Source: Bradyrhizobium sp. (lineage in GTDB: Bacteria > Pseudomonadota > Alphaproteobacteria > Rhizobiales > Xanthobacteraceae). Taken from it: a stretch of DNA of 42,931 nt. Within the stretch, counting starts at the first letter, position 1. Each line of letters begins with the position of its first letter. The translations under genes and the position numbers were made by a program. Positions 18,496 to 37,497 of the stretch are shown one piece after another. The stretch spans positions 1-42,931 of the forward strand of contig NZ_JAGWUA010000017.1 in the NCBI RefSeq assembly GCF_028868675.1. Reading direction: 5' to 3'. The notes beneath the pieces were generated by a model. That model saw only the letters and a program-made list of their open reading frames with translations, searched no databases and was not told where the DNA came from.

Positions 18496-18520
18496 GGAAC
18501 TCCAACCCGGGTTCGGGTTT
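18496..18520 (+). promoter_or_regulatory. Possible EcfG (general stress sigma) promoter before ligD
   Basis: GGAAC (18496-18500) is followed after 18 bases by TT, which fits the loose rhizobial form GGAAC-N18/19-TT, although the fuller -10 CGTT reads GTTT here. It lies 60 bp before the ligD start, in the only gap between kdpE and ligD. The match is short and could be chance. Confidence 0.27.
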
Positions 18521-18579
18521 TGGTTCCGGGCTGGAGGTTTGCCTGATAGGCTTCTCTCCAGGACGATGCGGGACCGGAC

Positions 18580-21322: not shown

Positions 21323-24103
21323 TCAGGCGCGCTCGCGCCTGCGCATCGGTCTTGCCGTCGCTCTGGCACGGGCCCTGAGGACTGCGGCGGGGAATGCTCC
21401 GCAGATCTCCGAGACCGGGACTGCCGCGCCGTCGATGCCCGCCATCGCATATGCCCCGAGCTGAACGACGGCGTCGAAGGCATCGGCCCTCGGCCAGTCC
21501 CGACCGCCCTGCGTCAACGGCGCGAACCATCGTCCGACCACCGTGATCGCGGCATCGCGGCCGTTCCGCCGCGCGAAGGCGATGACATGGCTGGCGTGGG
21601 GGCCGTTCACCTCGAGCGGCTCATAGCCGCCGTCGGTAAAGACCCCGGCGAGTTCGGCGCGCAACGCGAGCAGCCGGCGCGTCCAGGCGAATTTGATGCG
21701 GCCGTCCGGCCATCTCTGCGCGAGTTCGGACCAATCCGGATCGTCCAATGACGCAATCGCTGCGCGGCGGGCGGAAAAATTCACCGGACGGCGGTTGTCG
21801 GGATCGACCAAAGACAAGTCCCAGAGCTCGGTGCCCTGATAGAAATCCGGGACTCCAGGCAAGGTGGCCTTGAGCGCGAGCTGGCTCAGCGAGTTCAGCG
21901 CGCCGAGCAGGGCGGTGCGTCCTGCCAGCGCCCGCAGCGACTGCAAGAATTCAGCCGACAGCGAAGGATCGAGGATCTTTGCGATGAAGTCCCGCGCGCC
22001 AGCCTCATAGTCCGCGTTCGGGTTGAGCCAGCTCGTCTCTTCCTTGCCCTCGCGCGCCGCCTTGAGCGCATAGGCCTGCATGCGCTCGACGAAGCCGTCA
22101 TCCGGCCCGTCGACGGGCCACGCTCCGAGCAGCGCCTGGTACAGCATGTATTCGAACGTCGCCGACGGCGCCCGCATATCGCCCTTGAGCCTGACGTGCG
22201 GGGCATTGAGGACCTTCCAGCGCGCGACCGCGGCCGTCCATTCGCCGGCGATCCCGGCGAGCGCCGCGATCCGCGCCCGTGCGTCCTCGCCGCGCTTGGT
22301 GTCGTGGGTGGCGGTGGCCGTCATGCCGTGCGGCCATTGCCGGGCGCGCGCCTGCATGATCTGGTGAAACGCCGGAATCGGCATCCCGGCCGCCGATGGA
22401 TCGCCGCCGACCTCGTTCAGCGCGATCAGCCGGTGGTAGCGATAGAACGTAGTGTCCTCCAGCGACTTCGCCATCATCGGCCCGGTGAATTGCTGCACCT
22501 TCAGCGCAAAGCGGCGTACGCGCGGCGCGCTGTGCGGCGGACGGCCGGGGGCGAGCAGGTCCATGGTGAGGGCGTCGCGCAGGAAGGCGAAGATGCCCTC
22601 ATCGGCCGCGAACCAGTCGCCGCGGGCGCGTTCGACGGTCGCCTCGATCAGCGCGCGGTCGTGCGCGGTCGGGCCGGTCGTGGTGAGATAGGTGCGGTAG
22701 ACCGGGAAATGCAGCACGTAGAGCTCGAGCGCCTGCCGCAGGCTGTCGGCGGAGAAGTCGCGCGTGGAGTAGTGGCCGTTGGCGATGCGGGCGAGCAGGC
22801 GCCATAGCACCGTGAATTCGGAGGTCAGCAGCGTCTCCAGCACGCGCCGCTTCGCCGCCATCAGATAGGGCGCGAGCCGCGGCGGCCGGTTGCTGATTTG
22901 TCGCCAGGTCTCATCGAGGGCCTCCAGTCCGTGCGCATCCACCAGCACCTGCGTGATGACGTTCATCCATTCATAGCCGGTGGTGCCGGATACGCCCGCA
23001 AAGCGCGGCAGGTCTTCGTGCTCGCACAGGATCTTCTCGACCACGGTGTAGAAGGCTCTTGCGCCCTGCGCCTCGCGCACCAGCCGGCGCAGCCGCAGGC
23101 AGTATTGCGCGGGATCGCGCAGGCCGTCGATGTGGTCGAGACGCAGGCCCTGCAGGCGGCCGTCGGCGATCAACTGCCGGACCAGGCGATGCGTGGCGGC
23201 GAACGTGCCGGGATCCTCGACGCGGAGACCCGCGAGCCCGTTGACGTCGAAGAAGCGGCGGTAGTTGATGTCGCTCGAGGCGAGCCGCCAATGGCCGAGC
23301 TTGTAATGCTGCCGCTCGAGCAGGTGATGCAGCGTCAGCGTCTGCGCCGGCCGGTCCTGGCCCGCGCGGTAGACGCCAAGGCCGCGTGCGATGAGATCGG
23401 CCGCGCCGGGAATGTCTCTCAGCGCGGACTTGAAGGCAGGGGCTTCGCGGCGGCTCGGGTGACGCAAGCCCTTGTAGCGCGCCGCGAGCGCAAGCAGGTG
23501 CTGGCCGGCCGCGCTCTCATCCGCATCGGCCTCCTTCACGATCATCCGCAGCATCTCGCCGTAGCGCTCGGGCGCAATCGGCAGGCGATGCTCGAAATAC
23601 CAGGCGGAGAAGCTGCCTTCCCGCGCGTCGTAACGCAGCTCGATCTCGCCGCGCTCCAGCGCATCGCCATAGGCCGAGCCGAGGATTGGCAGCAGTACGC
23701 CTCCGCGTGCGCGATAGGGCAGTTGATCCCAATCGATGTCGAATGAGACGGCGTGCGGCGAGGCCGGTCCCCATTCCAGCACGTCGAGCCACCAGGGATT
23801 GTCGGCAAAATGCACGCCGAGATGGTTCGGCACGAAGTCGATGATCAGGCCGAGATCGTGCCGTCGCAGTGCTTCGCTGAGCCGCGCAAAGCCATCGGCG
23901 CCGCCGAGCTCGGGATTGAATTCGCCGTGATCGACGATGTCGTAGCCATGGGTCGAGCCCTTGCGCGCCTTCATCAGCGGCGAGGCATAGAGATGCGAGA
24001 TGCCGAGCGCCTTCAGATAGGGCACGATCTCGACGGCCTTGTCGAAGTCGAAATCGGCGGTGAACTGCAGGCGGTAGGTGGCGAGCGGGATCACAGGCGG
24101 CAT
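21323..24103 (-). CDS. treY: Maltooligosyltrehalose synthase TreY
   Basis: A 926-residue GH13 enzyme that turns the reducing end of a maltooligosaccharide into a terminal trehalose unit. The family opening ATYRLQFTADFDFDKAVEIV is followed by SHLYASPLMKARKGSTHGYD and IIDFVPNHLGV. Catalytic residues are Asp323 in GLRLDHIDGL, Glu356 in VVEKIL and an Asp in THDTKRGEDARAR. The start at 24103 is one base after the treZ stop, so translation is probably coupled; the open frame to 24247 lies inside treZ. It is the last gene of the six-gene leftward operon. Confidence 0.96.
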   Translation of the reverse strand: MPPVIPLATYRLQFTADFDFDKAVEIVPYLKALGISHLYASPLMKARKGSTHGYDIVDHGEFNPELGGADGFARLSEALRRHDLGLIIDFVPNHLGVHFADNPWWLDVLEWGPASPHAVSFDIDWDQLPYRARGGVLLPILGSAYGDALERGEIELRYDAREGSFSAWYFEHRLPIAPERYGEMLRMIVKEADADESAAGQHLLALAARYKGLRHPSRREAPAFKSALRDIPGAADLIARGLGVYRAGQDRPAQTLTLHHLLERQHYKLGHWRLASSDINYRRFFDVNGLAGLRVEDPGTFAATHRLVRQLIADGRLQGLRLDHIDGLRDPAQYCLRLRRLVREAQGARAFYTVVEKILCEHEDLPRFAGVSGTTGYEWMNVITQVLVDAHGLEALDETWRQISNRPPRLAPYLMAAKRRVLETLLTSEFTVLWRLLARIANGHYSTRDFSADSLRQALELYVLHFPVYRTYLTTTGPTAHDRALIEATVERARGDWFAADEGIFAFLRDALTMDLLAPGRPPHSAPRVRRFALKVQQFTGPMMAKSLEDTTFYRYHRLIALNEVGGDPSAAGMPIPAFHQIMQARARQWPHGMTATATHDTKRGEDARARIAALAGIAGEWTAAVARWKVLNAPHVRLKGDMRAPSATFEYMLYQALLGAWPVDGPDDGFVERMQAYALKAAREGKEETSWLNPNADYEAGARDFIAKILDPSLSAEFLQSLRALAGRTALLGALNSLSQLALKATLPGVPDFYQGTELWDLSLVDPDNRRPVNFSARRAAIASLDDPDWSELAQRWPDGRIKFAWTRRLLALRAELAGVFTDGGYEPLEVNGPHASHVIAFARRNGRDAAITVVGRWFAPLTQGGRDWPRADAFDAVVQLGAYAMAGIDGAAVPVSEICGAFPAAVLRARARATARPMRRRERA

Positions 24104-24104
24104 G

Positions 24105-25862
24105 CTAGCCTCCGAGACGCCAGACCACCGACCAGGGCGGAAGCCGTTCGCCGGCCGCCTTGCCCCAGATCGGCGTGCCGGTGATGTGGTCGGTGCGTGC
24201 GATATCCTCGTCGGACAGATTGGCCGCAAGGCGCATCGTCGTGCCATCGCCCATGCGCCAGTGCGCCGTCAGCACGCCGTCGTCGGCCGCCACGGCGTTG
24301 CCGAAGCGTGCACCACCAAGCCGTGGCACGATCTTCTCGTGGCGGAGCCGGAGTAGCTGCCGTACCAGCGCCTGCCGGGCCTCCTGCTCCGGCGTGCGCG
24401 AATACCAGTCGAGCACGGCGGACTGCAACGTGGCCGGGTCGAGCGGGTCGGGTACGTCGTTGCCGTACTTCGCATAGGCCCACGCATATTCCTGTCGCCG
24501 GCCGTTGCGGACGGCTTCGGCAAGGCCGCCGTGAAAATCGCAGAAGAACGGGAACGGCGTCGTGGCGCCCCATTCCTCGCCCATGAACAGCATCGGCACC
24601 GCCGGCGCGAGCAGGGTGATCGCGAGCGCCGCCTCGATCGCCGGCGACGCGGCCTGGCTCTCCAACCGGTCGCCGAGCGCGCGGTTGCCGATCTGGTCGT
24701 GGTTCTGCAGGAAATTGACGAAGGTGACCGGCGGCAAATGTCCGCTCGGCTCGCCGCGCGGCTTGTCGCCCCAGAAGGCGGACACCTCGCCCTGATAGAC
24801 GAAACCCAAGGCGAGCGCGCGGGCGAGATCGCGGCGTGGCGAGCGCTGATAGTCGCCGTAGTAACCGGCGGATTCCCGCGTCAACATCACGTGCCAGACG
24901 TGGTGATAGTCGTCGTTCCATTGCGCGCGGTATTTGCCGCGCGGCGGATCCTGCACCGGATCAAGCAGGCTCGCGCAGTTGTCGCCGTTCTCCAGCACGA
25001 GATGGATGTGCCGCGCCGTCTCGACGGCAAGCCGCCCCGCCGCGACGCTGAGTTCATGCAGCATCGGGGTTTCGCCGGGCTCCTGCAGGATGTGGTTGGC
25101 AGCGTCCAGCCGCAATCCGTCGAAACGGTAGTCGCGCAGCCAGTGGATTGCGTTCTCGACCGCGAACGCGCGTACCTCGCCTACGCGGTAGTCGATTGCG
25201 CTGCCCCAGGGCGTGTGCGCGTCGATGAAGAAGGTCGGCGCATAGCGGCCGAGATGGTTTCCCTCTGGGCCGAAGTGGTTATACACCACGTCGAGGAACA
25301 CCATCAGCCCGCGCAGATGCGCTTCATCGATGAGCGTCTTCAGGTCCTCAGGACGCCCATAGGCGCTGTCCGGCGCGTACCACAACACGCCGTCATAGCC
25401 CCAGCCGCGGGAGCCGGCGAAATCCGCCAGCGGCATCAGTTCGAGCGCGGTGATGCCTGTTGCGACCAAATGATCGAGCTTCTCGATCATGGCGCGATAA
25501 GTGCCATGCGGCGTGAACGTGCCCACATGGATTTCGATCAGGACGGTCTCGTGCCACGGGCGGCCGCGCCAATCCCGCGCGCGCCAGCCGAAGCTGTCGT
25601 GGTCGACGACCTCGCTCGGCCCGAAGACGTCCTCCGGCTGGAAGGCGGAGGCGGGATCGGGCACGTCGAGTTCGTCGTCGATGCGAAACCTGTAGCGTGC
25701 GCCGGCCGTCAGACCGGGAATATTTGTGACATACCAGCCATCGTGCTCGCGCCGCATGGCGTGACGCCGGTCGAGCAGGAGGTCGACGCGTTTTGCGCCG
25801 GGCGCCCAGAGCCGGAACTCGACGCCGTCTCCGGTCAGCCGCGGGCCAAAGGTTGCGCTCAT
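24105..25862 (-). CDS. treZ: Maltooligosyltrehalose trehalohydrolase TreZ
   Basis: A 585-residue GH13 enzyme that releases free trehalose from the product of TreY. An N-terminal carbohydrate-module-like domain (FGPRLTGDGVEFRLWAPGAK) precedes the barrel with IHVGTFTPHGTYRAM. Catalytic residues are Asp253 in FDGLRLDA, Glu291 in LVLENGD and Asp389 in NFLQNHDQIGNR, all present. Its start overlaps the glgX stop by four bases (ATGA). Placing treZ before treY, after glgX, suits a line in which debranched glucan is converted to trehalose. Confidence 0.95.
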   Translation of the reverse strand: MSATFGPRLTGDGVEFRLWAPGAKRVDLLLDRRHAMRREHDGWYVTNIPGLTAGARYRFRIDDELDVPDPASAFQPEDVFGPSEVVDHDSFGWRARDWRGRPWHETVLIEIHVGTFTPHGTYRAMIEKLDHLVATGITALELMPLADFAGSRGWGYDGVLWYAPDSAYGRPEDLKTLIDEAHLRGLMVFLDVVYNHFGPEGNHLGRYAPTFFIDAHTPWGSAIDYRVGEVRAFAVENAIHWLRDYRFDGLRLDAANHILQEPGETPMLHELSVAAGRLAVETARHIHLVLENGDNCASLLDPVQDPPRGKYRAQWNDDYHHVWHVMLTRESAGYYGDYQRSPRRDLARALALGFVYQGEVSAFWGDKPRGEPSGHLPPVTFVNFLQNHDQIGNRALGDRLESQAASPAIEAALAITLLAPAVPMLFMGEEWGATTPFPFFCDFHGGLAEAVRNGRRQEYAWAYAKYGNDVPDPLDPATLQSAVLDWYSRTPEQEARQALVRQLLRLRHEKIVPRLGGARFGNAVAADDGVLTAHWRMGDGTTMRLAANLSDEDIARTDHITGTPIWGKAAGERLPPWSVVWRLGG

Positions 25863-27934
25863 GGCGCGCCCGCGAATGCGAGCACCGAGCGCGGCGGCGC
25901 CTTGCTGTCGCCGCCCGGCGGGAAATCGACCGTGTTCAGTCTGGTCTCGGTGGTGTTCAGGATATGCTGCCAGCTGTTGTATTCGGCCATCCTGGGCAAT
26001 TTGAATGCGATCTCTTCCGGTGCTGCGTTCAGCACGATAAAGATGGCCGGTACGTCCGGTTCCAGGGGGCCGAGCACATAGGCGAGGAATCGCCCCTCCG
26101 GAAAATTCCAGTCACCTTCCGTCATCTCCTCGGCGGCCGGCGTCAGCCAGAGCACGCCGTAGGAGCCATCGGCGGGACGGCCATCCAGCCAGCGGTGGCT
26201 GCGCAATTGCGAGAAGCGCCTTCGAATTTCGGCGAGATGTCCGACGAAGTCGGTCACGTCCTCGCCGTCCCGGCCGAGGTTCTCCCAGCCGACCCAGCCG
26301 ATCTCGTTGTCCTGGCAATAGGCGTTGTTGTTGCCGGATTGCGAGTTGCCGACCTCGTCGCCGGCGAGGATCAGCGGCGTGCCCTGCGCCAGCATGAGGC
26401 AGGCGAGCGCGTTCTTGCGAAGTTGGCGGCGCAGCGCCAGGATCGTCTCATCGTCGGTCGGGCCTTCGACGCCGCAATTGTTGCTGTGGTTGTCGTTGGA
26501 GCCGTCGCGATTGTCCTCGCCATTGGCCTCGTTGTGCTTCTGGTTGTAGGCGAAGAGATCGGCGAGCGTGAAGCCGTCATGGACGGTGACGTGGTTGATC
26601 GAGGCGCGCGGCCGCCGTCCGTCGTGGTTGAACAGGTCGGAGGAGGCGGTCATGCGGCTGGAGATGTCGCCGATCAGGCTGCCTTCGCCGCTCCAGTAGC
26701 GCCGCATGGCGCTGCGATAGCGGTCGTTCCATTCCGACCATTGCGAGGGAAAGGCGCCGACCTGGTAGCCGCCCAGGCCGAGATCCCACGGCTCGGCGAC
26801 GAGCTTGACGGTGGCGAGCACCGGGTCCTGCCGCACGACGGTCAGGAACGCGTGGCCGCGATCAAAGCCGTTCGGCCCGCGCGCCAGCGTGGTCGCGAGG
26901 TCGAAGCGGAAGCCGTCGACGTGACAGACCTCGACCCAGTAGCGCAGGGAATCCATCACCATCTGCAGCACGCGGGGATGGGTGAGGTTCACCGACGAGC
27001 CGCAGCCGGTGAAGTCGTCGTAAAAGCGCGGGTTCTCGCGGTTGAGCCAGTAATACGAGGCGTTGTCGATGCCCCGGAAGCACAGCGTCGGGCCCAGATG
27101 ATTGCCTTCCGCGGTGTGGTTGTAGACGACGTCGAGCATCACTTCGATGCCGGCGTCGTGCAGCCGCGCCACCGTGGTGCGGAACGAGTCCAGCGGATTA
27201 TCCTGGGCGTAGCGGGGCTCGGGCGCGAAAAAGGACAGCGAGTTGTAGCCCCAGTAGTTGACGAGCTTCTTCTCCACCAGCACGCGGTCGTCGACGAAGC
27301 CGTGCATCGGCAGCAGTTCGACGGTGGTGACGCCGAGCCGCTTCAGGTGCGCGATCATCGCGGGCGAGGACAGGCCGCCATAGGTTCCGCGCAGGTTCGG
27401 CGGCACGTCCTCGCGCTTCTGGGTCAGGCCCTTGACGTGGGCCTCGTAGATGACGGTATCTTCCCAGGGGATGTTGGGACGGATCTCGCGTCGGCCCCAG
27501 TTGAAGGTCTCGTCGACCACGACGGCCTTGATCATGCCGCGCGCATTGTCGCGGCGGTCGAACGACAGGTCCTCGCGCGGACTCCCGGTGCGATAGGCGA
27601 AATGCGCGTCGCTCCACACCAGCCGGCCGGCGGTGCGCCTGGCGTAGGGGTCGAGCAGCAGCTTGTTCGGATTGAAGCGGTGGCCGTGCTCGGGTTCGTA
27701 GGGGCCGTGGACGCGATAGCCATAGAGCTGCCCCGGCGAGACGTCGTTGAGATAGCCGTGCCAGACGTCCTCGGTGCGCTCCGGAAGCTCGATGCGCTCG
27801 AGTTCGCGCCGGCCGTGACCGTCGAACAGGCACAGCTCGACCTTCTGCGCATGGGCGGAGAACAGCGCGAAATTGGTGCCCCTGCCGTCCCAGCTTGCCC
27901 CAAGACGTGCGGGCGATCCGGCGCTCAGTCGCAT
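25859..27934 (-). CDS. glgX: Glycogen debranching enzyme GlgX (isoamylase type)
   Basis: A 691-residue GH13 debranching enzyme. An N-terminal CBM48 region (SPARLGASWDGRGTNFALFS, typical of GlgX/TreX) leads to a barrel with Asp345 in GFRFDLAT, Glu381 in VAEPWD and Asp453 in HDGFTLADL. It removes alpha-1,6 branches and yields linear chains, the substrate of TreY. It begins 3 bp after glgB and overlaps treZ. In trehalose operons the same family is called treX, and that name would fit equally well. Confidence 0.95.
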   Translation of the reverse strand: MRLSAGSPARLGASWDGRGTNFALFSAHAQKVELCLFDGHGRRELERIELPERTEDVWHGYLNDVSPGQLYGYRVHGPYEPEHGHRFNPNKLLLDPYARRTAGRLVWSDAHFAYRTGSPREDLSFDRRDNARGMIKAVVVDETFNWGRREIRPNIPWEDTVIYEAHVKGLTQKREDVPPNLRGTYGGLSSPAMIAHLKRLGVTTVELLPMHGFVDDRVLVEKKLVNYWGYNSLSFFAPEPRYAQDNPLDSFRTTVARLHDAGIEVMLDVVYNHTAEGNHLGPTLCFRGIDNASYYWLNRENPRFYDDFTGCGSSVNLTHPRVLQMVMDSLRYWVEVCHVDGFRFDLATTLARGPNGFDRGHAFLTVVRQDPVLATVKLVAEPWDLGLGGYQVGAFPSQWSEWNDRYRSAMRRYWSGEGSLIGDISSRMTASSDLFNHDGRRPRASINHVTVHDGFTLADLFAYNQKHNEANGEDNRDGSNDNHSNNCGVEGPTDDETILALRRQLRKNALACLMLAQGTPLILAGDEVGNSQSGNNNAYCQDNEIGWVGWENLGRDGEDVTDFVGHLAEIRRRFSQLRSHRWLDGRPADGSYGVLWLTPAAEEMTEGDWNFPEGRFLAYVLGPLEPDVPAIFIVLNAAPEEIAFKLPRMAEYNSWQHILNTTETRLNTVDFPPGGDSKAPPRSVLAFAGAP

Positions 27935-27937
27935 GGG

Positions 27938-30077
27938 TCAGCCTTCCGGCACGAGGAAGATCGCGGCCAAAGGCGGGATGGTGAGGCTCAGCTCGGGCGT
28001 CTTGCCGGCGACGGCATGAACCTCTCCGATGTTGCCGACATTGGTGCCGCCGTAATGGGCCGAGTCCGAATTGAAAACCTCCTTCCATTTGCCGGCGAAC
28101 GGCACCCGGACGCGGTAGGAACGATAGACGTTGGGCGAGAAGTTGACGACGACGAGACAGCGGGCGCGGGCGTCAAGACCCTTGCGCAGCCAGGCGAAGA
28201 CGTTGCGGTTGGCGTCGTCGGTCACGAGCCATTCGAAACCGGCCTGCTCGCAATCCATCTGGTGCAGCGCGGGCTGCTCGCGATGGAGCCGGTTGAGGTC
28301 GCGGACCAGCGACTGGATTCCGGCGTGGTTCCCGTACTGTAGCAGGTGCCAGTCGAGCGACTGGTCGTGATTCCACTCGCGGCCTTGCGCGAACTCGCCG
28401 CCCATGAACAAGAGCTTCTTGCCGGGGTGGCCGAACATGAAGCTGTAATAGGCGCGCAGATTCGCAAAACGCTGCCACTCGTCGCCGGGCATCCGGCCCA
28501 GGATCGAGCGCTTGCCGTGCACGACCTCGTCGTGGGAGAGCGGCAGGATGAAGTTTTCCGAGAACGCGTAGTGCAGGCCGAACAGAATGTCGCCGTGATG
28601 GTATTTACGATGCACCGGGTCCTTGCTGATGTAGTTCAGCGTGTCGTGCATCCAGCCCATGTTCCATTTGTAGCCGAAGCCGAGCCCGCCATATTCGACG
28701 GGACGCGACACCTGCGGCCAGGCCGTGGATTCTTCCGCCGCGGTCGTCGCCTGCGGGAAGCGGCCGAACACCTCGCTGTTGAAGCGGCGCAGGAAGGCGA
28801 TCGCCTCGAGATTCTCCCGTCCGCCGTGCTGGTTCGGGACCCAGCCGCCCGGTGGCCGGCTGTAGTCGAGATAGAGCATGGAGGCGACGGCGTCGACGCG
28901 CAGCCCGTCGATGGCGTAGCGCTCCAGCCAGAACAGCGCGTTCGAGACCAGGAAATTGGCGACTTCCGTGCGGCCGTAATTGTAGATCAGCGTCCCCCAG
29001 TCGAGGTGACGGCCCTGCAGGGGATTGGCATGCTCGTAGAGCGCGGTGCCGTCGAAATGACCGAGCCCGTGCGGATCGTCAGGGAAATGTCCGGGTACCC
29101 AGTCGAGCAGCACGCCGAGGCCCTCGCGATGGCAGGCATCCACCAGCGCGGCAAAGTCCTCGGGGCCGCCGAACCGGCTGGTCGGCGCATAGAGACCGGT
29201 CGGCTGGTAGCCCCATGAGCCGTCGAACGGGTGCTCGCTGACGGGTAGAAACTCGACATGGGTGAAACCCATGTCGCGTGCGTAGGCGGGAAGCTGCTCG
29301 GCGAGCTCGCGGTAGGTCAGCCACTCGTTGTTGCCCTTGCGCCGCCAAGAACCGAGATGGACCTCGTAGATCGACATCGGCGCCGACAACGCGTTGATGC
29401 CGTCCGGCGCGGGGCGCGGCCGCGGCAACGCCTCCTCATCGAATACGATCGAGGCCGTCTTAGGCCGCACCTCGCTGGCAAAGGCCATCGGATCGGACTT
29501 CAGCGGCAGCGTGTGGCCGTGAGGACCGACGATGTCGAACTTGTAGTGATCGCCGGGCTTGGCATGCGGGACGAACAATTCCCAATAGCCGATGCCGCGC
29601 ACGCGCATCGGATGGCGGCGCGCGTCCCAGAAATTGAAGTCGCCGACCACGCTGACCCGCCGCGCGTTCGGCGCCAGCACCACGAAACCGATGCCGTCGA
29701 CGCCGTCGAGCGTCATCGGATGGGCGCCGAGCTTGTCGTAGAGGCGTTGGTGGGTGCCTTCGCCGAGCAGATAGAGGTCGTAGTCGCTGAGGATCGGCGG
29801 AAAGCGATAGGCGTCCTCCAGTTCGACGACCTTGTCGCCGAATTTCGCTCGCAACCGATAGCGCTTGGCGCCGTTGGGCACGGAGCCGGCGAACAGCCCG
29901 GCCTCGTGGATGCGGTCGAGCTTCGCCACCTCGCCGTGCTCTCCGATCGCCTCGACGTTGGAAGCCTCGGGCAGGAAGGCGCGCACCACGCTCTTGTCGC
30001 CCTCCGGATGCAGGCCGAGATAGTGGAAGGGATCGGAGTGGCGGCCTTCGATGACGGCGTAGGCTTCGGCAGACAAT

Positions 30078-30085
<8 letters not shown>
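27938..30085 (-). CDS. glgB: 1,4-alpha-glucan branching enzyme GlgB
   Basis: A 715-residue GH13 branching enzyme of usual length, with two N-terminal beta domains (about 1-110 and 120-220) and the catalytic barrel. Asp398 in [17 protein letters not shown], Glu451 in [10 protein letters not shown] and Asp519 in [10 protein letters not shown] are all present. It puts alpha-1,6 branches into glucan, in GlgE-type pathways on chains built from maltose-1-phosphate. The start ATG overlaps the end of treS by eight bases; the open frame to 30196 lies inside treS and is rejected. Confidence 0.96.
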
Positions 30086-33371
<3,286 letters not shown>

Positions 33372-33382
33372 GGCGCGTATCC

Positions 33383-35419
33383 TCACGCCAGGCACCGGAA
33401 CAGCAGCGCGGGATCGCGATGGGGATCGATGCGCAGGCGAATCCCGCCCCATTCGATCCCGGACTGCTCGCCGGTCAGGAGATTTTCGATTGCGCAAACA
33501 TGGCGCCGCTCGCCGCCGATGTCGAGCGTGACGTCGCCGAGCGGGAGCCAGAATTCCCGCACGTTGCGAGACAGCGCGATCGCGGCCGCCACCGCGTTGC
33601 TGCCGTCGGCCGACGTCTTGACGAAGGCGATCGCCTCGCCGTCCTCGATGGCGAGAAAGCGGAACCTCTCGGTCTGCTGCAGCGCCAGGTTGTCCCGCCG
33701 GATGCGGTTGAGGGTCGCAATGTAGGCCTTGATGTTGCCGGGCCGGTCCCAGTCGCGCGGCTTGATCCGGTATTTTTCGGAGTCGTGATACTCCTCGCGG
33801 CCTGGCACAGCCTCGTGCTCGAGGAGTTCGAAGCCACTGTAGATGCCGTAATTGCCCGACAGTGTGGCCGCCAGCGCGACGCGCGACTTGAACATCCAGG
33901 GCTCGCCGCTCTGCAGGTGATACGGCAACACGTCCGGCGTATTGGTGAAGAGGTTCGCGCGATAGTACTCGCGTTGCGGATGGCTCGTCAGTGCGCCGAG
34001 ATGCCGCTCCAGCTCCCACTTCTCCGTGCACCAGGGGAAATAGCTGAAGGATTGCGCGAAGCCGAGCTGCGCCAGCCCGCGCATCAGCTTCGGCCGGGCA
34101 AAACTCTTGGCGAACAGGATGACCTCGGGATGGCGGCGGCGGATGTCGCGGATCAGCCATTCCCAGAAGTGGAACGGTGCGGTGTCGTGGTTGTCGACGG
34201 CGAACATCGTCACGCCCTGCTCGATCCAGCACAGCATGACGTCACGGAGGGCATTCCACAGCGCGCTCCGATCCTCGCAGGCGAAGTCGGGCATGACGAT
34301 GTCGGAGTAGGGACCGTCCGTCGGCGGCATCGAGCCGTCGGGCCGGCGCTTGAACCATTCGGGGTGCTGCATCAGCCAGGGATGGTCCGGCGAGCACTGC
34401 ACGACGAAGTCGAGCGCGATCTCGACGCCGTATTCGAGGCAGGTCGCCGCCAGCGCTCGGAAGTCCTCGATGGTGCCGAGCTCGGGATGCAGCGCGTCGT
34501 GGCCACCCTCGATGGCGCCGACCGCGTAGGGGCAGCCGGGATCGCCGTCGGCGGCATCAGGCGAATTGTCGCGGCCCTTGCGGCGGCTGCGGCCGATCGG
34601 GTGGATCGGCGTGAAGAACAGCACGTCGAAGCCCATCGCGGCGATGTCGGGCACGCGCGCAATGCAGTCTCTCAATGTGCCGTGCCGGCCGTCCGGCCCG
34701 CCCTGGCTGCGCGGCATCATCTGATACCAGGCACTGAAGTGCGCCTTGTCGCGGTCGGCGATGAGCGGAAAGAGGGTGGAGCGCGTCAGGTCGGACCGCG
34801 ACTGGCTTTCGGCCATGACGTTCCTGAGCTCGGTCGTGAGCAGGGGGGCGACGTCGCCGGTCTGCAGGTAATCTTCGCACTGCCTGACGATGATGGACGC
34901 CGCGTCCTGATCCGCGCCATAGGCCCTGGTGAGCAGGCCCGCGCCCTCGATCGCATCGAGCGTGACGTCGACGCCGCATTGCTGCCGCAGCTCCAGGCCG
35001 CGGCGCCACGTCGCGAACTCGTCGGTCCAGGCCTCGACGGCATAGACATAGGCGCCGGGACAGGGCGGCACGAAGGAGCCGAACCAGCGGTCGTCGGAAT
35101 GCAGCGTCATCCGTTCACGCTGCCATTCCCGATCCTGCTCGCGGCGCCAGACGAGCGCGGCGCCGACCACGCCGTCGCCGTCGCGCAAGACATCCGCCCA
35201 GACCTCGACGGGCTCGCCCGCGATCCGCTTCACCGGAAAGCGGCCGCCGTCGACCGAGGGATAGACGTCTTGGATGAGGAAAGCGCTGCCGGTTGCGGCG
35301 CTCTCGACAGTTTGAATTGTCCTGTTCACGGTGATGCCATTGACAAGAAAGCAGCGTCCCGTTTCCCTCCAGCGAGAACCGGCGCTTGGTATCTCCATAA
35401 GAAGCCGCTTCTGTGTCAT
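33383..35419 (-). CDS. GlgE-like maltosyltransferase-family protein with altered active site
   Basis: A 678-residue protein with the GlgE plan. The N-terminal domain carries the hallmark DVYPSVDGGRFPVKRIAGEP (51-70); the GH13 barrel follows, with ALDFVVQCSPDHPW and TNTPDVLPYHLQ, and then a beta domain. GlgE extends alpha-glucan with maltose from maltose-1-phosphate. The nucleophile Asp409 and stabilising Asp496 are kept. The acid/base Glu normally in LAEAFTRP is Lys438 (FAKSFARP), and the Arg two residues before the nucleophile is Ala407. The loop RVDNPHTKP reads AVDNHDTAP. It is the first gene of the treS-glgB-glgX-treZ-treY operon. The N-terminal 40 residues lack clear family matches, so a start at Met8 is possible. 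Likely a pseudoenzyme or changed enzyme, so no symbol is given. Confidence 0.85.
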   Translation of the reverse strand: MTQKRLLMEIPSAGSRWRETGRCFLVNGITVNRTIQTVESAATGSAFLIQDVYPSVDGGRFPVKRIAGEPVEVWADVLRDGDGVVGAALVWRREQDREWQRERMTLHSDDRWFGSFVPPCPGAYVYAVEAWTDEFATWRRGLELRQQCGVDVTLDAIEGAGLLTRAYGADQDAASIIVRQCEDYLQTGDVAPLLTTELRNVMAESQSRSDLTRSTLFPLIADRDKAHFSAWYQMMPRSQGGPDGRHGTLRDCIARVPDIAAMGFDVLFFTPIHPIGRSRRKGRDNSPDAADGDPGCPYAVGAIEGGHDALHPELGTIEDFRALAATCLEYGVEIALDFVVQCSPDHPWLMQHPEWFKRRPDGSMPPTDGPYSDIVMPDFACEDRSALWNALRDVMLCWIEQGVTMFAVDNHDTAPFHFWEWLIRDIRRRHPEVILFAKSFARPKLMRGLAQLGFAQSFSYFPWCTEKWELERHLGALTSHPQREYYRANLFTNTPDVLPYHLQSGEPWMFKSRVALAATLSGNYGIYSGFELLEHEAVPGREEYHDSEKYRIKPRDWDRPGNIKAYIATLNRIRRDNLALQQTERFRFLAIEDGEAIAFVKTSADGSNAVAAAIALSRNVREFWLPLGDVTLDIGGERRHVCAIENLLTGEQSGIEWGGIRLRIDPHRDPALLFRCLA

Positions 35420-35431
35420 TAGTTCCGCCCG

Positions 35432-35457
35432 GGAACGGCAGCCCTGCTCCGCGAGTT
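35432..35457 (+). promoter_or_regulatory. Possible EcfG (general stress sigma) promoter before malQ
   Basis: GGAAC (35432-35436), then 19 bases, then TT; the -10 reads AGTT against CGTT. It lies about 80 bp before malQ in the 116-bp gap between the divergent glucan operons. Trehalose and glycogen genes are often under general stress control in rhizobia, which fits, but the match is short. Confidence 0.3.
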
Positions 35458-35535
35458 AAGCCTGATTAACGCCTTCGTTCGCCTGATAAAAGTGCCTCCG
35501 TCCCGGCCAGGGATCGCTTGCAAGCCGCGTGCCGA

Positions 35536-37497
35536 ATGGATCTGATCGCTCAAGCCAAGACCAGGGGAATTCAGGCAGAGTTCATCGATGCCCTGGGGAC
35601 GCTGCGGGTCACCGGGCCCGCCGCTCTCAAGTCCATTCTCGCGGCGCTGCCCGAGAAGCGCGCTTACCGGTTCGTCGCCGGCCCTGTCGTGGTCCGGGCC
35701 GGCCCGCCGGTGCGTACCGCACTGTTCGAGGCCGCGGTGCTCCCGTTGCGCTGGTCGATCGCGCGCGGCGCGGAGGTGGTCGCGGAGGGAGAGGCGTGCG
35801 AGCGCGTCATTGCCTGGCCCGCCGGTCTGGCGCCCGGCTATTACCGGCTGAAGCTCAGGGATGCCGCGGGCATCGAGGACGAGGCGCCGCTGCTCGTGGC
35901 ACCGGAACGCGCCTTCACCGGCGATTTCGATCGCGGCTGGTTGCTCGCCGTGCAGCTCTACGGCATCCGCTCCGCGCGCAACTGGGGAATCGGCGATTTC
36001 ACCGATCTGGCGGGTCTCGTGGCGCTCGCCGCCGAGCTTGGCGCGGACGGCGTCGGCCTCAACCCGCTGCACGCGCTGTTCGACGACCGGCCGACCGATT
36101 GCAGCCCTTATTCGCCGAACAGTCGCCTGTTCCTCAATCCGCTCTACATCGACGTCGAGGCGATCCCGGAATATTCGGCCGATCTGCTGCCCGAGGCGCG
36201 CAGCATCGCGGCGCGCCTGCGTGACGGCGACCGGGTCAACTATGCCGAGGTCGGGCCGCTGAAATGGCGGGGCCTGCGCGCCGCTTTCGATGGGTTCCTG
36301 GCCCGGGCCAGCGACACGCGCCGGCAGGATTTTGCGGCGTTCCGCGCTGTGCGAGCGCCGCTGCTGCAGCGTTTTGCCTGCTTCGAGGTGCTGCGGCATC
36401 GCTTCGCCCGGCCGTGGTGGGAATGGCCGAGCGAGTGGCTGCGGCCGGATGAGGCGACATGCGCCGAACTGCGCGAGGGCCCCGACGGGCGCGAGGTCGC
36501 GTTCGTCGAATTCGTGCAGTGGACCGCCGAGACCCAGCTGCATGCGGCAAAGGCGCTTGCCGGCCGGCTCGGCCTCAAGGTCGGGCTCTATCTCGACGTC
36601 GCGGTCGGCGTGCAGTCCAACGGGTTCGATGCCTGGAACGAGCAACTCGCGATCTCGCGCCAGCTCGCGGTCGGCGCGCCGCCCGACGTGCTCAACACCG
36701 TGGGCCAGGATTGGGGTCTTGCCGGATTCAATGCCGGCGGGCTCGAGGCGCGATCCTTCGTGCCCTTCGCCGAGATGCTGGCGGCCTCGATGCGCCACGC
36801 CGGCGCGATCCGGCTCGATCACGTGCTCGGGCTCAAGCGGCTGTACCTGGTGCCGCGCGGCTTCAAGCCGGACAACGGCGCCTATGCGCAGATGCCGTTC
36901 GAGGCGTTGCTCGCTACCGTTGCCCGCGAAAGCGCGGCGCATGGCTGCATCGTGATCGGCGAGGATCTCGGCACCGTGCCCGAAGGTTTTCGCGAGACCA
37001 TGCAGGACTGGGGCATCTGGTCCTATCTGGTGATGATGTTCGAGCGCGACGATCAGGGGCGTTTCCGCAACGTCGATCACTACATTCCCAATGCGTTGGT
37101 CACTCTCAACACCCACGATCTCTGCACCTATGCCGGCTGGCGTTCCTTCAGCGATCTGAAGGTGAAGCTTTCGCTGGGGCTCGACCCCGGCGAGAGCGAG
37201 CAGGCGCGCTGGCACGCGCTCGGCATGCTCGACGACATCCTCCGCCACAACGCCATCGAGCGGAACGACCTCTATTCCGTGCTGGCGTTCCTGGCACGGA
37301 CCCCCTCGCGGTTGCTGGCCGTTTCGCTGGAAGACCTTTTGGGCGTGGTCGACCAGCCGAACATCCCCGGCACGATCGACGAGCATCCGAACTGGCGCCA
37401 GCGCCTGCCGGTCGCGCTCGAGCATATCGCCGCGACCATCGATCTCGCCGCGCTGAAGGCCGCAACCAGGGAACGGTCGTCCCTGCCGGCGCGTTGA
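35536..37497 (+). CDS. malQ: 4-alpha-glucanotransferase MalQ (GH77)
   Basis: A 653-residue GH77 enzyme that moves maltodextrin segments between chains and frees glucose. Family signatures: LYGIRSARNWGIGDFTDL, the substrate loop TDCSPYSPNSRLFLNPLYID, Asp428 in IRLDHVLGL, Glu476 in VIGEDLGTVP and Asp528 in LNTHDLCT. The N-terminal 140 residues form the extra domain of bacterial MalQ. The ATG at 35536 is preferred over an earlier TTG at 35518; neither has a strong ribosome site. It is divergent from the glgE-like operon and 33 bp ahead of the GH15 gene. Confidence 0.94.
   Translation: MDLIAQAKTRGIQAEFIDALGTLRVTGPAALKSILAALPEKRAYRFVAGPVVVRAGPPVRTALFEAAVLPLRWSIARGAEVVAEGEACERVIAWPAGLAPGYYRLKLRDAAGIEDEAPLLVAPERAFTGDFDRGWLLAVQLYGIRSARNWGIGDFTDLAGLVALAAELGADGVGLNPLHALFDDRPTDCSPYSPNSRLFLNPLYIDVEAIPEYSADLLPEARSIAARLRDGDRVNYAEVGPLKWRGLRAAFDGFLARASDTRRQDFAAFRAVRAPLLQRFACFEVLRHRFARPWWEWPSEWLRPDEATCAELREGPDGREVAFVEFVQWTAETQLHAAKALAGRLGLKVGLYLDVAVGVQSNGFDAWNEQLAISRQLAVGAPPDVLNTVGQDWGLAGFNAGGLEARSFVPFAEMLAASMRHAGAIRLDHVLGLKRLYLVPRGFKPDNGAYAQMPFEALLATVARESAAHGCIVIGEDLGTVPEGFRETMQDWGIWSYLVMMFERDDQGRFRNVDHYIPNALVTLNTHDLCTYAGWRSFSDLKVKLSLGLDPGESEQARWHALGMLDDILRHNAIERNDLYSVLAFLARTPSRLLAVSLEDLLGVVDQPNIPGTIDEHPNWRQRLPVALEHIAATIDLAALKAATRERSSLPAR

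Follow-up and report, generated by a model that had tools for sequence, protein, structure and literature searches.

What becomes of a GlgE homologue whose acid/base glutamate has been replaced by a lysine? GlgE is the α-1,4-glucan:maltose-1-phosphate maltosyltransferase of subfamily GH13_3, exemplified by Streptomyces coelicolor GlgE1. A GlgE-like gene that raises this question lies in a 42,931-nucleotide stretch of DNA (hereafter the window), whose contig (C320) is part of a 5.04 Mb genome that is 99.96% complete and whose relatives, by database comparison, are Bradyrhizobium. A preliminary description made from the window's sequence had proposed that this protein lacks its catalytic acid/base in an otherwise complete GlgE-pathway operon.

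Genomic context

The GlgE-like gene (33383..35419, minus strand) is an open frame with 678 codons as listed. Its true start is probably located some 14–31 codons downstream of 35419: a database entry for the protein is 648 residues long, most matches in the clade described below start at residue 14–20 of the listed frame, and in some relatives a stop codon precedes their own start. In the order of minus-strand transcription, the gene is followed by those for a TreS-maltokinase fusion (30078..33371, 1097 residues, starting 11 bases past the GlgE-like stop codon), the branching enzyme GlgB (27938..30196, tentative start, the listed frame overlapping the end of the TreS-maltokinase gene), the debranching enzyme GlgX (25859..27934), TreZ (24105..25862) and TreY (21323..24247). 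The fusion exceeds the curated cut-offs of both its parts, with 906 bits for TIGR02456 (cut-off 678) and, in the maltokinase half (residues 571–1088, 30108..31661), 569 bits for TIGR02457 (cut-off 375). A motif scan of GlgB, GlgX, TreZ and TreY was too loose, and these four were identified by curated cut-offs as well (PRK05402, 972 bits against 741, for GlgB; TIGR02100, TIGR02402 and TIGR02401, respectively, for the other three). Judged by gene order, the GlgE-like gene appears to share an operon with TreS-maltokinase and GlgB.

The divergent neighbour (35518..37497, plus strand) encodes a GH77 4-α-glucanotransferase (MalQ) by domain match, and a GH15 gene is, like MalQ, oriented opposite to the GlgE-like gene. 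Sites that resemble σEcfG promoters (GGAAC and GTT separated by 15–18 bases) occur six times in the window against 2.1 expected. Two of them, overlapping and on opposite strands, are found at 18496–18527 upstream of ligD. Another, at 35432–35457, is upstream of MalQ and faces it, and a σEcfG-type promoter for the GlgE-like gene was rejected.

The active site

The protein carries the GlgE N/S domain (PF11896, E = 3.9e-50), and its residues 47–673 align to S. coelicolor GlgE1 with E = 2e-136. In this alignment, Ala407 takes the place of Arg392, the GH13 arginine, Asp409 that of the nucleophile Asp394, Lys438 that of the acid/base Glu423, and Asp496 that of Asp480. Codons 407–414 (34178..34201, minus strand, as are all codons given here) read AVDNHDTA for RVDNPHTK: Asp409 is kept, while Ala407, His411 (for Pro396), Asp412 (for His397) and Ala414 (for Lys399) are new. 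Lys438 is part of LFAKS (codons 435–439, 34103..34117), its codon AAG occupying 34106..34108, and codon 496 (33932..33934) still specifies aspartate. The alignment and the codons thus bear out the preliminary reading of Lys438 (AAG, 34108–34106), Ala407 and the two retained aspartates. Among the phosphate contacts of GlgE (Asn352, Tyr357 and Asn395), Asn352 is gone, having become Gly369. Of the catalytic residues expected in a GlgE enzyme, the nucleophile is present and the acid/base glutamate and the arginine are not; by its residues, the protein would count as a pseudoenzyme, i.e. a homologue of an enzyme family without the family's catalytic residues.

A first structure model, for which the alignment was narrow, reached a poor pLDDT of 62 and was set aside for a model based on 71 sequences (pLDDT 81), in which the protein is predicted to have the GlgE fold. 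Asp409 directly follows strand 405–408, as GH13 requires, and Lys438 is placed at the end of strand 434–438. A structural check for another glutamate at the acid/base place, which the preliminary description had called for, found none in this predicted model. Nor was a second, canonical GlgE found in the 5.04 Mb genome, a search of which returned a single match.

Distribution of the Lys438 type

The comparison set consists of 120 distinct long GlgE proteins. Duplicates and matches that start after residue 45 or end before residue 670 were excluded, and L026–L028 and the split L121 and L122 fell out by these rules. Lys438 is found in 84 of the 120, and these 84 form one Bradyrhizobium clade. 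Lys438, His411 and Asp412 are present in all its members and Ala407 and Ala414 in 83 each; the one member without Ala407 has Thr, and the GH13 arginine is absent in 84/84. With the same residues in 84 distinct proteins, a sequencing slip or a mutation of a single strain is rejected. The nucleophile Asp409 is kept in 81 members and replaced in three (V, A, A).

The residues that contact the maltosyl unit, as named in passages of PMC4663749, are largely preserved in the clade. K281, D373, N410, D496, K549 and Y550 are each found in 84/84 proteins and Q341 in 83/84; residue 296 is Ser in 80 and Cys in four, and residue 285 is Asn in 77 and Asp in seven. The acceptor-site Trp463 is invariant (84/84). 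Asn352 is lost in all 84 members, with Gly in 73, and the other phosphate contacts are kept (Tyr371 in 83/84, Asn410 in 84/84).

Wider searches place the same residues in a large part of the genus. Among the best 120 of 7951 database matches, 109 (the window's own entry included) have A-D-H-D-K-D at positions 407/409/411/412/438/496, four are single-residue variants with Lys438, which brings Lys438 to 113, and seven are canonical. A long Lys438-type match is found in 96 of 195 Bradyrhizobium genomes when each genome is assigned one class from its best match among the matches listed (to E = 1.8e-269). The two types were told apart by identity (at least 73% vs at most 70%), a division with which residues 407 and 438 agreed in all the genomes fetched from these groups. 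A search for weaker second GlgE copies in 60 + 13 genomes gave short GH13 matches only, besides pieces of split or interrupted genes. In a scan of 296 genomes of the family, matches of at least 73% identity are confined to Bradyrhizobium, and all 19 GlgE sequences from 18 non-Bradyrhizobium genomes are canonical. One genome of another genus (G315) has two GlgE genes (L181 and L182), both with canonical motifs, in addition to glgC. Automatic annotation often labels the Lys438-type proteins maltosyltransferases.

Purifying selection and fixed replacements

In the codon models, ω (dN/dS) is 0.093 in the Lys438 clade (18 sequences out of 84), 0.079 in canonical GlgE relatives (18 out of 23) and 0.120 in the E2 group described below (all 11). 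When 16 clade and 17 canonical sequences are compared domain by domain, the values are 0.077 vs 0.061 in the catalytic domain, 0.115 vs 0.098 in the N/S domain and 0.126 vs 0.098 in the C domain. Constraint on the clade GlgE is strong, though slightly weaker than in canonical GlgE. The codon changes agree with the purifying selection expected of a pseudoenzyme in use: within the clade, the codons of K438, H411, D412, D496 and K549 changed 4, 4, 7, 9 and 19 times, respectively, without a change of amino acid. Averaged over 629 sites, there are 13.0 codon changes and 4.5 amino-acid changes per site. Amino-acid changes are absent at 209 of these 629 sites, so that their absence is on its own not rare. 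The conservation of Lys438 and Ala407 (84/84 and 83/84) and the purifying selection for which the preliminary description had proposed a check are both confirmed, and they uphold its argument against a sequencing slip or recent decay.

In canonical Bradyrhizobium GlgE, 293 positions are invariant with at most one exception each. The clade keeps 234 of them in at least 81 of its 84 members and has 12 fixed to another residue, seven of which lie no more than five residues from D409 or K438 (P = 6e-7 for 18 sites this close, ignoring kinship). Altogether, at least 81 of the 84 proteins share the same residue at 370 of 629 positions. Over these 370 sites, the members that lack D409 have four deviations each, D409 counted (clade median 2, range 0–24), which places them 24th from the top among the 84. 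The window protein is the most divergent member, with 24 deviations, and has all the new active-site residues.

Split genes occur in both types. In the clade member G101, a complete genome, the Lys438-type gene is split over two frames (L121, L185), and the TreS-maltokinase match in L185 is also split. In G133, likewise complete, a GlgE-like gene with canonical residues (G133:C1:1994395-1996324) lies in two frames beside a canonical maltokinase.

An altered maltokinase

The preliminary description had taken the TreS-maltokinase for an apparently intact maker of maltose-1-phosphate, the GlgE substrate, and the GlgE pathway for otherwise complete. Neither view can be maintained, as the maltokinase pocket has changed together with GlgE. 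According to passages of PMC4306142, Asp305 is the putative catalytic base of maltokinase, metal is bound by Gln310 and Asp322, His307 belongs to the proposed maltose pocket, Glu324 is part of the DFE motif, Glu326 is salt-bridged to Arg342, and Ser136 is at the γ-phosphate. Asp305, Gln310 and Asp322 are present in the window protein. In the alignment, residue 948 (30528..30530, minus strand) is Arg in place of the pocket His307 (HGDFRLGQ), and residues 965–967 (30471..30479, minus strand) are DGD for EGE, which replaces Glu324 and Glu326 and turns DFEGEP into DFDGDP. The window maltokinase also has Phe for the usual Arg before DVA (AFDVAG for ARDVAG); by motif, this would be the arginine that pairs with Glu326.

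The same changes run through the clade, in which His307 is Arg in 78/78 maltokinases and DFEGEP has become DFDG, in most cases with D or N as the next residue. Asp305, Gln310 and Asp322 are kept in 81/81, so the protein may still be a kinase, and Ser136 is replaced by Ala in 5/81. The ω of the maltokinase half is 0.131 in the clade vs 0.095 at canonical loci. The catalytic residues of TreS are intact in 94/94 altered loci and in 24/24 readable canonical ones (five more were unread). Thus, the operon is not simply decaying.

Paired changes in GlgE and maltokinase

Seven GlgE and seven kinase positions were read per locus. All could be read at 123 distinct loci of 193, the remainder being duplicates or not covering both genes. 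With Ser136 set aside, both active sites are altered at 94 loci, both are canonical at 29, and none is discordant. Two of the 123 loci contain split genes, L185 (both sites altered) and L122 (canonical by residue). As the GlgE frame of L122, the G133 locus, is split, the pairing rule holds for residues, and L122 may, if the split is not a sequencing error, combine a broken GlgE with a canonical kinase and be an exception for intact genes.

Five patterns can be told apart among the altered loci. The first is the Lys438 clade (81 loci). The second is E2 (10 loci), with N352H or N352Q and Y357W in GlgE and E324D, E326G and S136P in the kinase. The other three are L129 (GlgE N352H, Y357W; kinase H307N, S136A), L186 (GlgE Y357S; kinase Q310E, E326N, S136R) and L184 (GlgE D394K, N395D, Y357H, N352D; kinase D322G, S136P). 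Ser136 is thus replaced in E2, L129, L184 and L186, and Asp322 is lost in L184. The Lys438 clade keeps Asp305, Gln310 and Asp322 and, unlike these four, mostly Ser136, and its kinase may therefore be changed, not dead.

Two variants within this set have an unaltered acid/base. L129–L138 and L161 combine it with His or Gln for N352 and Trp for Y357; the P-loop Ser136 of their maltokinases is Pro, or Ala in L129, and glgC is present in nearly all. In L184:5001-7037 (genome G437), AEAFTRP is canonical, the nucleophile Asp394 has become Lys (RVKDPHTKP), and the kinase has Gly for Asp322.

In a phylogeny of the TreS half with 62 taxa, among them 25 of the 81 clade loci, the label altered/canonical switches five times. 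We counted the events here because the changes affect the GlgE genes themselves. The position of L129 in this tree is weak (neighbouring support 41), and the paired change is accordingly put at four to five independent lineages. The TreS tree has the Lys438 clade beside the canonical L102; the GlgE tree has it beside the N352H/Y357W group (support 1.0 for the joint node and 0.66 for the clade itself).

Glycogen synthesis in the same genomes

GlgC was scored by the TIGR02091 cut-off in the 195 Bradyrhizobium genomes. It is over the cut-off in 95 of 96 Lys438-type genomes (the 96th, G078, has two adjacent pieces), in 4/25 genomes with canonical GlgE at 65–70% identity, in 26/27 with GlgE at 62–67%, in 3/7 of the lower or split group and in 12/40 without GlgE (weak matches or none); these counts share kinship, and the 96 Lys438-type genomes are not 96 independent events. 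In the window genome, GlgC and GlgA are found together on contig C332. The E2 group has GlgC too and shows that GlgC can occur without the Lys438 state. Of 19 more genomes from the family, eight have glgC over the cut-off; all eight are outside Bradyrhizobium (8/18) and have canonical GlgE, which argues that GlgC permits the change and does not force it. One altered lineage, G437, has no glgC over the cut-off. Another route to maltose-1-phosphate is that of GlgM (described in part of PMC11046441). GlgM is over its cut-off in none of the 11 genomes searched, seven of which are clade members, and was rejected as an alternative source.

Function of the Lys438-type protein

On balance, we favour the reading that this GlgE homologue, likely without maltosyl transfer, is kept next to TreS and GlgB as a non-catalytic protein that binds maltosyl units or the ends of glucans. 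Throughout the clade, catalytic residues have been replaced and the replacements fixed under purifying selection, the kinase has changed in parallel, and the maltosyl contacts are conserved. Mutation of Glu423 leads to a loss of activity, as stated in PMC5076824; with neither the acid/base nor Arg392, turnover of maltose-1-phosphate would cease. GlgE1 variants E423A and D394A were crystallised with malto-oligosaccharides bound (same source, in the passages concerned), so a GlgE without these residues can still bind sugar, as we infer for the Lys438 type.

In the scenario we propose, the ADP-glucose route (GlgC/GlgA) would supply glycogen in this lineage, and flux through maltose-1-phosphate would then be dispensable. 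The kinase and GlgE sites would change together, as an active kinase beside a dead GlgE would accumulate harmful maltose-1-phosphate. Such accumulation is seen in a Streptomyces glgE-null mutant and not in a pep2-null mutant (as reported in a section of PMC5042117); that the harm comes from loss of GlgE, not of the kinase, would explain the paired change. TreS would remain an enzyme, with GlgE as its binding or regulatory partner. The treS gene of B. diazoefficiens (blr6767) is under σEcfG, and its mutant is reported to have more trehalose and less maltose (passages of PMC8092242). This suggests that TreS may run toward maltose, and it is there that a maltose-holding partner would act.

Several points weigh against a retired enzyme kept purely as a binder. 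The nucleophile, kept in 81/84, would be more than a binder needs; the new residues match the old ones in their degree of fixation, which may also fit a new reaction; ω is slightly above that of canonical GlgE in each of the three domains; the clade maltokinase, with its catalytic and metal-binding residues in place, may still be active; L122 may pair a broken GlgE with a canonical kinase; and glgC is not sufficient for the change and is not over the cut-off in the altered lineage G437. The first two also fit the strongest competitor, in our judgement unlikely, in which the maltosyl pocket is kept and His411, Asp412, Lys438 and Ala407 run a new reaction or take a new sugar phosphate from a re-shaped kinase. 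The strict conservation of His411, Asp412 and Lys438 (84/84, with synonymous changes only) is consistent with such an enzyme, and so is a kinase that keeps its phosphotransfer residues and has Arg for the pocket His in 78/78. Furthermore, the other altered lineages replaced Ser136, and two of them also a metal ligand, whereas Ser136 became Ala in just 5/81 clade kinases. A re-wired enzyme is harder to reconcile with the three members that lack Asp409 and show no marked decay, with the absence of the nucleophile-supporting arginine in 84/84, and with the ω of the maltokinase half, which at 0.131 exceeds the canonical 0.095. Also unlikely, and put forward as a tentative idea, is a conversion of GlgE and maltokinase as a pair, in which the kinase, through the Arg of its sugar pocket, would phosphorylate another sugar, and GlgE, with a new His-Asp-Lys site above the former maltosyl pocket, would bind or convert the product.

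That the gene is a functionless relic in slow decay is quite improbable. Its split in G101 and the loss of the nucleophile in three of 84 proteins fit decay. The ω of 0.093 for the whole gene and 0.077 for the catalytic domain, the 370/629 conserved positions and the long Lys438-type match in 96/195 Bradyrhizobium genomes do not. Relic status is disfavoured by ω and is possible for single strains such as G101.

The preliminary description had offered a maltose-1-phosphate sensor as one possible role. Here, Lys438 would bind the phosphate and the protein report the pool, in keeping with a positively charged residue at the phosphate end and with the retained sugar contacts, Tyr371 and Asn410. 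The idea is weakened by the loss of Asn352 and by the parallel change of the kinase pocket, after which a constant supply of maltose-1-phosphate is no longer a given; with no GlgM over the cut-off in the genomes searched, this sugar phosphate may be absent, and we regard a sensor as very unlikely. Least probable of all is a still-working GlgE in which phosphate, a good leaving group, lets Lys438 or Asp412 replace the acid/base: although the nucleophile, the third Asp and most sugar contacts are kept, the GH13 arginine and the phosphate-binding Asn352 are gone, the donor-making kinase is altered too, and in GlgE1 mutation of Glu423 removes activity and the acceptor-site change H397R alone lowered kcat about 40-fold (passages of PMC5076824).

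Relation to known systems

Compared to S. coelicolor GlgE1, the window protein has Lys for Glu423, Ala for Arg392, Gly for Asn352 and Asp for His397, and its partner kinase has a changed pocket. The canonical GlgE of other Bradyrhizobium (65–70% identical, for example L105) has the same gene order where this was read, at L105, and, on the trees, common ancestry; its motifs RVDNPHTKP and AEAFTRP are intact, and so are HGDFHLGQ and DFEGEP in its maltokinase. The laboratory variants E423A and D394A likewise lack the acid/base or the nucleophile and still bind malto-oligosaccharides, but they are single engineered changes (PMC5076824, in part), whereas the clade has a natural, fixed replacement of several residues.

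A GH13 fold in a partner role has a precedent. The SLC3 heavy chains (4F2hc and rBAT) have this fold and act as partner chains. Like the role proposed for GlgE, theirs is not catalysis; they differ in being animal membrane proteins of distant sequence, and no kinship is claimed. Chains of rBAT were found among the matches to TreS.

In the literature searched, no paper joins "pseudoenzyme" and "GlgE". B. japonicum is described in print, in the passage concerned, as having a complete glgE operon, and a section of a 2021 paper links a Bradyrhizobium desiccation phenotype to the glgE operon as a suggestion. Among the entries examined, those from B. japonicum and B. diazoefficiens (P0009 and P0112) are of the Lys438 type, so the desiccation inference needs a test. 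If GlgE and maltokinase were indeed converted as a pair, the GlgE operon would have a second, so far unrecognised use throughout a large Bradyrhizobium branch. The repeated, paired change in the maker and the remover of a harmful intermediate is a natural test of a joint-retirement rule, for which the canonical sister species are the controls.
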